The notes beneath the pieces are model-generated. The model was not told the origin of the DNA, did no database searches, and saw nothing but the letters and a program-made list of their open reading frames with translations. From contig CANKOY010000013.1 of assembly GCA_947484275.1 (NCBI GenBank), positions 1 through 64,000 of the forward strand: a stretch of DNA of 64,000 nucleotides. Direction: 5' to 3'. Position numbers and translations under genes: made by a program. Below are positions 42,730 through 50,011 of the stretch, one piece after another; position 1 is the stretch's first letter; every line of letters begins with the position of its first letter. The DNA comes from Planctomycetota bacterium (lineage in GTDB: Bacteria > Planctomycetota > UBA1135 > GCA-002686595).

Positions 42730-43047
42730 TCAGTCGGACTTCTTCGAGTCCGATTTGGGACTCTTCTCACTTGGGGCCGTTTTGGCCGAGTCCGACTTGC
42801 CACTCTCCGCGGGTTTGGTCGATTCGCCGCCGGAGTCCTTCTTCGCGCCCTCCGTGTATGAACTGGAGCGGTAGTCGGTTTGGTAGAAGCCCGAGCCCTT
42901 GAACAGAATTGCGGCGCCGCTGCCGATCTGCCTTTGCAGCTTCGACTTCTTGCACTTCGGACACTTCTTCTTTGGGGACTCGGTCATCGGTTGGAAAATT
43001 TCCAACCGGTGGGCGCAGGCTTGGCAAACGTAGTCGTAGGTGGGCAT
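42730..43047 (-). CDS. FmdB-family zinc-ribbon protein
   Basis: 105 residues. The N-terminal zinc ribbon has CxxC pairs in YVCQACAHRLE and KKKCPKCKKSKL, and the GSGAAILFKGSGFYQTDYR block is characteristic of FmdB-like proteins. The last 45 residues are Ser/Lys/Asp-rich and disordered. The family is regulatory or of unknown function. Its ATG overlaps the TAA of grpE by one base (TAATG), so it is the last gene of the dnaJ-grpE-fmdB unit. Confidence 0.92.
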   Translation of the reverse strand: MPTYDYVCQACAHRLEIFQPMTESPKKKCPKCKKSKLQRQIGSGAAILFKGSGFYQTDYRSSSYTEGAKKDSGGESTKPAESGKSDSAKTAPSEKSPKSDSKKSD

Positions 43048-43652
43048 TAGGAGGCCTCCTCGGACTGCGGGGCAGGCGGGACGTTCTGAGCAGCGCTGGC
43101 CACCAGCACATGGGCCGGGCGCAGCACGAACTCGCCCCAGGAATAGCCTTGGCGCACGACTTCGATGATCGTATCAGGCTCGCGACCCGGGGAAGGAACA
43201 CTTGCCACGGCCTGGTGCAGGGCGGGATCGAAGCGATCGCCGGGCTTCAGTTCGGACATGGGCTGGACGCCTGCATTGGCGAGGGTGCGCTTCAGCTCGG
43301 CGCGGGTCATTTCGACGCCGCGGGCCAGGGCCTGGGCTGCATCGCCGCTGCGCGGGGCCATGAGCGCAAGGTCCAGTTGATCGATGGCCAGGAGCATGCC
43401 CTCCAAGATGCTCTGCTGCGAGCGGCGCACCGCTGCGTCGATGTCCGACATTGTGCGGCGCCGGAGGTTCTGAAAATCCGCCTGGGCCCGCTGCCAGCGC
43501 GCTAGGTAGTCGTCGCGCTCGCGCGTCAATTCGGCGAGCGCAGCTTCCTTGGCATCGCGTTCCACGGCGTCAGCGGATCCCTCGGTCCCTTGGCCCTTGG
43601 CGTCCTCGCCGCGCTCCTCGTCTCGTTTCATGTTCTTGTGGAAGAAGCTCAT
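43047..43652 (-). CDS. grpE: Nucleotide exchange factor GrpE
   Basis: 201 residues. A charged N-terminus (about 35 residues) precedes a long coiled-coil helix (AALAELTRERDDYLARWQRA) and the C-terminal beta wing with GDRFDPALHQAVASVPS and VRQGYSWGEFVLRPAHVLVA, the family signature. GrpE dimers release ADP from DnaK. The ATG overlaps the dnaJ stop (ATGA). dnaK itself is not in the window. Confidence 0.95.
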   Translation of the reverse strand: MSFFHKNMKRDEERGEDAKGQGTEGSADAVERDAKEAALAELTRERDDYLARWQRAQADFQNLRRRTMSDIDAAVRRSQQSILEGMLLAIDQLDLALMAPRSGDAAQALARGVEMTRAELKRTLANAGVQPMSELKPGDRFDPALHQAVASVPSPGREPDTIIEVVRQGYSWGEFVLRPAHVLVASAAQNVPPAPQSEEAS

Positions 43653-44937: not shown

Positions 44938-46542
44938 TCAGACGGTACTGCCTTCAACCTTCGAAGCATCATCCTTGAGGTCGGTGACCATCGAGTCCGT
45001 AGTGAGCAGCAAGCCCGCGATCGAAGCCGCGTTGACCAGGGCGGAACGCACGACCTTGGCCGGATCGATGATGCCAGCCTTGTACATGTCCACGTATTCC
45101 AGCGTCAGGGCATTGAAGCCGATCGAGCCGCCCTTCTCGCGCACCATCTCGACCACCACGGAGCCATCTTCGCCGGCGTTGTCGGCGATTTGCGCCAGAG
45201 GAGCTTCAAGCGCCTTCTCGACGATCAGGACGCCGAAGCGCTCGTCGCCCTTGACCTTCAGGCTCGACAGGGACTCCGCAGCGCGCAGCAATGCGACGCC
45301 GCCGCCGGGAACAATGCCCTCCTGAATCGCCGAACGCGTCGCATTGAGCGCGTCCTCGACCAGTTGCTTCTTGTTCTTCATCTCCGCCTCGGTGGAGCCG
45401 CCGACCTTGATCACCGCCACGCCGCCGGTCAGCTTGCCCAGGCGCTCCTGGAGCTTCTCTTTGTCGTAGTCGGATTTGGTCGCCTCGATCTGCGCGCGGA
45501 TCTGCGCGCAGCGAGCGTCGATTTCTTTCTTCTTGCCCGCGCCTCCGATGAGGATCGTGCGGTCCTTGGTGACCTGCACGCGCTTGGCCTGACCGAAGTG
45601 CTCGCTGGTGACCTTGTCCAACGGGATGCCGAGGTCCTCGGTGATCGCCACGCCGCCCGTCAGAGCGGCGATGTCGCCGAGGTAGGCCTTGCGTCGATCG
45701 CCGAAACCCGGTGCCTTGACGGCGCAGATGTTCAGCACGCCTTTCAGGCGGTTGATCACCAACGTAGCCAGGGCCTCGCCTTCGATGTCCTCCGCGATGA
45801 CCAGCAGCGGACGGCTCAGTTGCGCCGCCTGCTCGAGCACCGGAAGGAACTCGCGGATCGTGTTGATCTTCTTCTCGTAGATCAGCACGTAGGCGTCGCT
45901 CAGCTCGGCAGTCAGCTTGGTCAAATCGGTCGCGAAGTACGGCGAGAGGTAGCCCTTGTCGAACTCCAATCCCTCGACGACCTCGAGCGTCGTTTCGGTG
46001 CTGGTGTGCTCCTCGACAGTGATCACGCCTTCGTCACCGACTTTCTCGAACGCGTCGGCCAAGAGCACGCCGATCGTCGCGTCGTTGTTGCCGGAAATCG
46101 TGGCGATCGCGACCTTTTCCTCGCGCTTCTTCACCTTGCGGGACTGCTTGGAGATCGACTCCGTAGCAGCTTCGACGGCCTTCTCGATGCCGTTGCGCAG
46201 GGAGATCGTGTCCACTCCGGTGGCGACGTACTTGAGACCTTCCTTGAAGATCGCACTGGCCAGCACCGTGGCGCTGGTGGTGCCGTCGCCGGCAACGTCA
46301 TTGGTTTTCGAGGCCACTTCGCGCACGAGCTTGGCGCCCATGCTCTCGAAGGGATCCTCGAGCTCGATTTCCTTGGCGACCGTGACACCGTCCTTGGTGA
46401 CCACCGGTGAGCCGAAGGACTTTTGCAGGATCACGTTGCGGCCCGCAGGCCCGAGCGTGACGCGCACGGTCTTGGAGAGTTTCTCGATGCCATCGCGCAT
46501 CTTCTGACGCGCCGCGTTGTCGAACAGGATTTGTTTGGCCAT
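44938..46542 (-). CDS. groEL1: Chaperonin GroEL, paralogue without GGM tail
   Basis: 534 residues. Conserved ATP-site and hinge motifs: [64 protein letters not shown] and [12 protein letters not shown]. The C-terminus ends in [11 protein letters not shown], so the Gly-Gly-Met tail typical of canonical GroEL is absent. It lies 57 bp downstream of a second groEL, and the two differ throughout, meaning an old duplication. The bases before the ATG are A/C-rich (ACACAACACTCCC) with no Shine-Dalgarno sequence. No groES is near; the co-chaperonin must be encoded elsewhere. Confidence 0.96.
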
Positions 46543-46599
46543 GGGAGTGTTGTGTTTCTGGTGTTCTTTGTTGTGTGAGTGGGGGAATTGAGCGCCGGC

Positions 46600-48291
<1,692 letters not shown>

Positions 48292-48349: not shown

Positions 48350-48581
48350 CGCGCGGCGCGCAAGTGGCGCTGGAAATTTGGGGTAGGACGGAATCCGCGG
48401 TTGCGCGGGTGAGCTTGGGGGTGCCGTGCCTGCGCGAGACCGACCCAGCGGGCAGTCGGGTCCGCGAAAACGACGGACGCAGCGGTCAGAGGACCGTGCT
48501 TGGGTGGCGCTTTGCAAGAACGGTGCCGCTCGCATTCCTGGGCACTCTCAGCGTGTGCGGGGCTTGGGCCAGGGCCGGCCT

Positions 48582-48638
48582 GCTGCCACATTGGCAGAGG
48601 TCGTAGCCCGTCGAGTTGCCCTCTGCCAGTGTGGCAGC
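48582..48638. promoter_or_regulatory. Paired palindromes CTGCCA-N3-TGGCAG
   Basis: Two copies, CTGCCACATTGGCAG at 48583-48597 and CTGCCAGTGTGGCAG at 48623-48637, are 40 bp apart centre to centre, and the flanks (AGAGG and CCTCT) extend them into a larger inverted repeat of 19-bp arms with one mismatch. Each copy is a perfect 6-3-6 palindrome, the form bound by dimeric regulators. They lie between groEL2 and the divergent NPCBM gene. This is not the CIRCE element of HrcA. The rest of the 463-bp gap shows no ORF or RNA gene. Alternatively the large repeat could fold as a hairpin in a transcript from either side. Confidence 0.6.
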
Positions 48639-48739
48639 AGCGCCCGGTGTCTGCAGGGATCGGGAGGGTAGCTGTGGAACCCCGCGCGGCGAGTCCACGC
48701 CTTCGCTCAGAGGTGTCTGTGCTCGGGCCCCTCAGCGGC

Positions 48740-48754: not shown

Positions 48755-50011
48755 ATGTCGACTCAGCCCATGACCCTCGTCGCCTCGTTCGTCCTGCTTG
48801 GATTGTCCCAGGTGCCCGCGCCAACACCGGACGGCTCCAGTCCCTCCGCGCGCGGCGCGGGACAACTTCTGATCGAGAAACTCGACGGTGCGCTGGAGAC
48901 CCGCGAGGTCGCCGATCCAGGAGAGATCCGGTTCGCACCCGACGCTGCCGTGTTCCTGCGCTACACGGGCGAGCGCCCCAAGCCGATCCACGGTTCCGAT
49001 CGGGCGCGCGGCCGCGTCGAGCTGAGCGATGGGCAACGCTGGACCGGGGCAGTCGCGGGCGGGAGCGGCGATACGCTGCGCTGGACCACGGAACTTGGGC
49101 CGGAACTCAAGCTCTCCGTCGATCACGTGGTGCGCATCGAGTTCCCGTGGCGCATCCAAGATCTGGATCGAGCTGCCTTGGAACCCGCGCGCGAGGGAGA
49201 TCGGCTTTATTGGGTCCATGGCGATGCCTTGGAGCGCGTGGACGGAACGTTCGAGGCCTTCGACGACGCCGGCGTCCAGCTCACTAGCGTGCTCGGTAAG
49301 CGCTCGTTCCCCTGGGCCGAAGTAGGCGCGCTGTTCGTCGCCCAGCTCACCGGTGACAGTGTGCTCGACGAGGTCTCCGGCGCGCCCTTGATCGTGGACC
49401 TCGCCGACGGATCGCGGCTGCGCGCGGGCTTCGCGGCTGCGGATGCTCGGGGACTGGTGATCGACTACCCGCGCGCGGGCAAGCTCGAGATTCCATTCGC
49501 CAGTTTGCTGGAGGCCGCGCTGGACGATGGGTCGATCGCGTTCCTATCGGAATTGGCTCCAAGCAAGACCCAGGAGGGATCGCTCTTCGGCGACGACCTT
49601 GGGCTGCGCTGGCCCCATCGAGTGGATCGCTCGGTCGTCGGCAGTCCGCTCTCGGTCGCGGGCCAGCGCTTCGCTCGCGGCATCGGAGTCCACGCTCCCA
49701 GCCGCATGGAGTGGGACTTGGGGGCCGCAGCCTCTGGCGCGCGCAAGCCGCGGACGTTGACCGGTATGTTCGGGATCGACGACTCCGTGCGCACGACATC
49801 CGCGCGCGGATCGGTCCGATTCCAAGTTCACGTCGATGGGGAAATGCGCTGGGAATCTGGCGTGGTCCGCGGCGGTGAGTCCGTCCGGGCCCTGCCGCCC
49901 ATCGACATCGGGGGGGCGACGCACCTAGCGCTGGTGGTGGATCCCAGCGAAGATTCCTTCGTTGCCGACCGCGCGAATTGGCTACGGCTGGTCTTGGTCC
50001 GCGCGCCCTGA
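48755..50011 (+). CDS. Exported NPCBM-domain protein
   Basis: 418 residues from MSTQPMTLVASFVLLGL, a signal peptide cut near VPAPTP. The middle (about 50-270) consists of small beta modules, for example GRVELSDGQRWTGAVAG and LADGSRLRAGFAAADARGLVI, with hydrophobic strands. The last about 150 residues match the NPCBM carbohydrate-binding module: SLFGDDLGLRWPHRVDRSV, GIGVHAPSRMEWDL, FGIDDSV, VRFQVHVDGEMRWESGVV and LALVVDPSEDSFVADRANW. It probably binds glycans outside the cell; no catalytic domain is present. The final 30 bases overlap the convergent diguanylate cyclase gene. Confidence 0.85.
   Translation: MSTQPMTLVASFVLLGLSQVPAPTPDGSSPSARGAGQLLIEKLDGALETREVADPGEIRFAPDAAVFLRYTGERPKPIHGSDRARGRVELSDGQRWTGAVAGGSGDTLRWTTELGPELKLSVDHVVRIEFPWRIQDLDRAALEPAREGDRLYWVHGDALERVDGTFEAFDDAGVQLTSVLGKRSFPWAEVGALFVAQLTGDSVLDEVSGAPLIVDLADGSRLRAGFAAADARGLVIDYPRAGKLEIPFASLLEAALDDGSIAFLSELAPSKTQEGSLFGDDLGLRWPHRVDRSVVGSPLSVAGQRFARGIGVHAPSRMEWDLGAAASGARKPRTLTGMFGIDDSVRTTSARGSVRFQVHVDGEMRWESGVVRGGESVRALPPIDIGGATHLALVVDPSEDSFVADRANWLRLVLVRAP

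Follow-up and report, generated by a model that had tools for sequence, protein, structure and literature searches.

Two palindromes in front of the groEL2-groEL3-dnaJ-grpE genes of this Planctomycetota bacterium very probably form an enhancer for a sigma-54 activator, and the same paired arrangement recurs upstream of dnaK and groES. A fuller model, in which the activator would be the bEBP encoded next to dnaK, acting through the paired enhancer and a sigma-54 promoter, is likely on the sequence comparisons presented here. New to this work are the motif of the enhancer, its phasing and how widely the arrangement occurs, together with the candidate activator. The features of the window, i.e. 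the whole 64,000-nucleotide stretch of DNA analysed, that bear on this proposal are as follows:

42730-43047, minus strand: FmdB-type zinc-ribbon protein gene, the last of the run
43047-43652, minus strand: grpE, 201 aa
43649-44806, minus strand: dnaJ, 385 aa
44938-46542, minus strand: groEL3, 534 aa
46600-48291, minus strand: groEL2, 563 aa with a Gly/Met-rich tail, an NCBIfam GroEL equivalog and first gene of the putatively controlled operon
48512-48528, minus strand: predicted sigma-54 promoter CGGCAC-CGTTC-TTGCAA (-24/-12), on the groEL2 side, 54 nt from UAS site 1
48580-48640: inverted repeat enclosing UAS sites 1 and 2, with 21-nt arms (48580-48600 and 48620-48640) that are 95% complementary
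48583-48597: UAS site 1, the promoter-proximal palindrome CTGCCACATTGGCAG, centred at about -88 from the predicted groEL2 start
48623-48637: UAS site 2, the promoter-distal palindrome CTGCCAGTGTGGCAG, centred at about -128 from the predicted groEL2 start
48755-50011, plus strand: divergent NPCBM-domain gene, conserved beside groEL2, with no sigma-54 promoter on its side

The pair lies between the groEL2-groEL3-dnaJ-grpE genes and the NPCBM-domain gene, and consists of two exact copies of CTGCCA-N3-TGGCAG with a start-to-start distance of 40 bp in the window sequence. A sequence-only reading of this DNA had described two perfect 6-3-6 palindromes 40 bp apart, with flanks that turn them into a larger inverted repeat. 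The description was accurate in both respects, and the larger repeat is largely automatic because each site is itself palindromic. The motif it gave was present but too narrow: positions 4 and 12 may also be T and A (CTGTCA-N3-TGACAG), and the fuller consensus of the sites is CTGYCA-N3-TGRCAG. A scan for sigma-70 promoters found none, and an Rfam search returned tRNAs only. With regard to gene order, the groEL2-groEL3 tandem (44938-48291) is located upstream of dnaJ-grpE and is also present in relatives, while groEL1 is separate and accompanied by groES. The NPCBM gene adjoins groEL2 in 22 of 27 relatives, with identities of 29-43% and no shared sigma-54 promoter found.

Throughout the 3.67-Mb genome, the core TGCCA-N3-TGGCA occurs only four times, in each case in front of a chaperone operon: two copies at groEL2-groEL3-dnaJ-grpE, one upstream of dnaK and one upstream of RR-groES-groEL1. 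The dnaK upstream region (contig C40) contains a second, imperfect copy 42 bp from the core site, and upstream of RR-groES-groEL1 (contig C60) the sequence CTGTCATCCTGACAG is located 40 bp from the core site. The remaining one-mismatch sites of the genome (contigs C23, C39, C45 and C50) are unpaired and fall inside long ORFs. The genome-wide motif count was not enriched, and because a reversed control pattern was equally frequent, the number of motifs alone is uninformative. The placement, pairing and conservation of the sites are non-random.

The sequences preceding dnaK, groEL2 and groES in 40 relatives (family and order) gave 85 usable regions, and site pairs were scored out of 24 against 1,700 dinucleotide shuffles of these regions. 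A score of at least 20 was reached by 71 of the 85 real regions versus none of the shuffles, the relatives not being statistically independent and kinship inflating the sample. The sequence-only reading had named loss of the motif in front of the groEL orthologues of close relatives as an observation that would speak against it; this was looked for, and the outcome did not speak against it. A pair scoring at least 21 was carried by 67 of the 85 regions; the other 18 were without a high-scoring pair. Within the pairs the spacing was 40 bp in 45 of 67, and otherwise 29-30, 33 (three cases, one family), 39 or 41-43 bp. The classes of 29-30 and 39-43 bp cover nearly all pairs and differ by approximately one helical turn. 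Exact-motif loci of relatives at which no chaperone gene was found (L035, L037, L040, L042, L047 and L050) were mostly inside coding DNA or unpaired. Two apparent orphans proved to be a pair near the bEBP gene at a contig end (genome G012) and a pair upstream of RR-groES-groEL (G005); for the G015 pair (L042), which falls within a predicted ORF, the search found no chaperone gene.

The -24/-12 element of sigma-54 promoters has the consensus YTGGCAC-N5-TTGCW, and candidate elements were scored out of 11. Downstream of the pair, an element of at least 9 was present in 62 of 67 regions versus 3% of shuffles, and one of at least 10 in 47 of the 67 versus 0.15%. The window element has the -24/-12 form of sigma-54/bEBP-controlled promoters, and by the -24/-12 convention groEL2 transcription would start near 48502. 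The distance from UAS to promoter in the own genome is 54 bp for groEL2, 64 bp for dnaK and 75 bp for groES; across the relatives the promoter is located 41-119 bp downstream of the pairs, with distances clustering near 42, 53, 64, 75, 87, 98, 108 and 118 bp. These values recur roughly every 11 bp, i.e. one helical turn (R 0.70, a strength that 2,000 random sets never reached), and the period is also seen in the dnaK, groEL2 and groES sets separately. To allow for inflation of the sample by related genomes, distinct distance values were tested too, and the period persisted. Such phasing is expected where a protein bound at the sites must face the polymerase at the promoter, and is otherwise hard to explain. 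Sigma-54/bEBP-controlled promoters typically have upstream dyads, frequently in pairs, some 80-150 bp ahead of the start and in helical phase, and the sites conform to this pattern. The earlier suggestion that their spacing would suit two regulator dimers on one face of the DNA is supported. RpoN is encoded in 40 of 41 genomes; most relatives have two rpoN paralogues, as does the own genome, where they are located on contigs C1 and C8.

Since a sigma-54 promoter adjoins the sites, we regard them as the enhancer of an activator rather than as repressor operators. The sequence-only reading had tied the sites to the chaperone genes, which stands, but it missed the sigma-54 promoter and saw the sites against the background of heat-shock repressor operators. 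A palindromic pair upstream of chaperone genes is indeed also a form that repressor operators take, and the protein taken to bind the pair is a predicted one. Nevertheless, that the sites are operators of some chaperone repressor is very unlikely, given that they do not overlap the promoter elements but precede them by 41-119 bp, that helical phase with a sigma-54 promoter is an enhancer arrangement, and that HrcA is absent. HrcA was found in none of the 41 genomes, the own genome included (a control search was positive in 7 of 14 reference genomes), which extends to whole genomes and all relatives searched the earlier remark that no heat-shock repressor gene is nearby. The sites had also been said not to be CIRCE, and rightly so: sequence and spacing are different, and the best match to CIRCE (TTAGCACTC-N9-GAGTGCTAA) in 90 upstream regions had 6 of 18 mismatches. 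HrcA/CIRCE control was rejected on the absence of HrcA and the quality of this match. For HspR/HAIR (CTTGAGT-N7-ACTCAAG), the best matches, by raw mismatch count, had 3-4 of 14 mismatches. It is hardly conceivable that the inverted repeat acts as RNA, in the form of a hairpin, thermometer or terminator. Its folding is strong on either strand (z of -7.1 and -5.8), but this is trivial for palindromic sites; the repeat is upstream of the groEL2 promoter, and therefore outside the groEL2 transcript, its spacing varies from 29 to 43 bp among genomes, and it has no T-run. A hairpin or terminator was rejected on position and variable spacing.

The sequence-only reading had allowed for control of groEL2, of the divergent NPCBM gene or of both. 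The first is supported, as a promoter of at least 9/11 points towards groEL2 in most relatives, and the NPCBM gene is probably not a target of the pair. Its retention beside groEL2 in 22 of 27 relatives would suit control of this gene, alone or together with groEL2, but we consider such control highly improbable: a sigma-54 promoter (at least 9/11) towards NPCBM was found in 1 of 23 relatives, approximately the shuffle rate of 2%, and the same pairs are present at dnaK and groES in the own genome without an NPCBM neighbor.

The own genome encodes a predicted bEBP with a receiver, an AAA+ domain with GAFTGA and a Fis HTH, which is our candidate for the activator at the enhancer:

5511-6899 of L010, contig C40: candidate bEBP (receiver, sigma-54 AAA+ and Fis HTH), directly upstream of dnaK and preceded by a histidine kinase gene

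The identity of the activator rests on linkage to dnaK and on co-conservation. The best match to the candidate was found in 41 of 41 genomes, and in 25 of the 35 genomes in which both genes could be placed it preceded dnaK by 70-3,919 bp in the same orientation; the other 10 were fragmented assemblies or belonged to two other families. The receiver Asp, Walker A/B and GAFTGA-type loop are kept, and the HTH recognition helix GxGERTLYRK is retained phylum-wide and differs from that of other bEBPs. Its best NCBIfam scores against the respective cut-offs were 454/714 for AtoC, 423/559 for NtrC and 417/760 for ZraR; because these are far under every curated cut-off shown, the predicted protein is, by score, a member of no named bEBP family among those listed. 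We also weighed whether the enhancers are bound by another of the cell's bEBPs. Several bEBPs are encoded per genome (nine hits at E<1e-60 in the own genome), and the candidate is away from dnaK in 10 of the 35 genomes. This explanation is unlikely: the linkage to dnaK is conserved, with the bEBP gene invariably in front of dnaK and in the same orientation in the linked cases, every one of the 41 genomes has a best match, and the recognition helix, like the sites, is conserved phylum-wide.

With the dnaK-linked protein as activator, the following mechanism can be envisaged. Two dimers of this NtrC-family bEBP (receiver-AAA+-Fis HTH) would occupy the two palindromes from the same side of the helix; the gene in front of dnaK most likely encodes this protein, its binding and activating role being those we infer for it. 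Phosphorylation of the receiver by its histidine kinase would lead the bEBP to assemble into an ATPase ring, which would contact RNA polymerase-sigma-54 through a DNA loop. The polymerase would be waiting at the -24/-12 promoter (48528-48512, minus strand), 54 bp downstream of the pair, and melting of this promoter by the ring would allow transcription of groEL2-groEL3-dnaJ-grpE. Both dnaK and RR-groES-groEL1 would be driven by the same bEBP through the same arrangement. Judging from the targets, we lean towards heat or misfolded protein as the inducing signal. The gene heading the groES-groEL operon, upstream of groES (2915-3337 of L014, contig C60), encodes a receiver-only response regulator. 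Such a gene adjoins groES in 27 of 30 relatives, and the same holds for 26 of 30 phylum-wide loci; the phospho-acceptor Asp is retained in 56 of 56 sequences, and a role as a feedback sink is possible.

The predicted system resembles the NtrC-type bEBP/sigma-54 systems (NtrC, ZraR, NorR and AtoC) in having palindromic sites in pairs upstream, a -24/-12 promoter, an activator of receiver-AAA+-Fis build and RpoN, but differs in that the targets are core chaperones and the bEBP falls by score outside the named families. The nearest functional precedent is HsfB-HsfA of Myxococcus xanthus, likewise a histidine kinase and an NtrC-like regulator that activate a heat-shock gene, lonD, as described in PMC9109919 (citing Ueki and Inouye 2002), a likeness at the level of the published description; the targets described there are lonD, secondary-metabolite and pilus genes rather than groEL, dnaK or groES. 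HrcA/CIRCE shares with our sites an inverted repeat upstream of groE and dnaK, but its sequence and spacing are different, hrcA is absent here, and HrcA is a repressor and not an activator. A 2025 survey of chaperone genes in Planctomycetota and Bacteroidota (PMC12316311) reported that predicted sigma-54 promoters are enriched at GroEL, GroES, DnaK, DnaJ and GrpE genes in Planctomycetota. These agree with the promoters found here; unlike the present analysis, the survey gives no enhancer motif (UAS is unmentioned in its text) and no cognate bEBP. In Rhodopirellula baltica, chaperones were heat-induced, no regulation of rpoH, rpoE or rpoN was seen, rpoH being present but not regulated on heat shock, and the authors suggested a significantly different response cascade (PMC2754498). 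Our literature search, the scope of which did not extend to Studholme and Dixon 2004 (Pirellula bEBPs), turned up no description of either the enhancer or its activator, and no paper combining anammox, heat shock, sigma54 and chaperone. The predicted enhancer, promoter and activator make heat-shock control directly testable in Planctomycetota, a phylum that includes the anammox bacteria. An ATP-driven, tightly switched activator for essential chaperones would be unusual beside the textbook repressor and sigma-32 schemes.

Named relatives of the candidate bEBP pointed to Planctomycetota as the phylum. To gauge breadth, 392 genomes drawn across Planctomycetota were scanned for two sites at 40 bp with at most 3 mismatches. 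The paired motif was present in 111 of the 392, versus 5 for the reversed pattern, and 29 of 30 phylum-wide pair loci that were fetched are at groES-groEL, groEL or dnaK. The carriers include Candidatus Brocadia sp. WS118, Candidatus Scalindua arabica and one Phycisphaerales genome. We tentatively suggest, somewhat short of an even judgment, that a dedicated two-component sigma-54 activator might be the ancestral chaperone master regulator in Planctomycetota, anammox bacteria included, replacing HrcA/CIRCE, with the receiver-only protein encoded first in RR-groES-groEL serving as a feedback sink for phosphoryl groups. In Pirellulaceae, the sigma-54 elements upstream of groES persist and the palindromes are single or degenerate. 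At the Blastopirellula, Aporhodopirellula and Rhodopirellula loci (L308, L316 and L322), the groES sigma-54 promoters score 11/11, and the nearby palindromes are one in number or degenerate.
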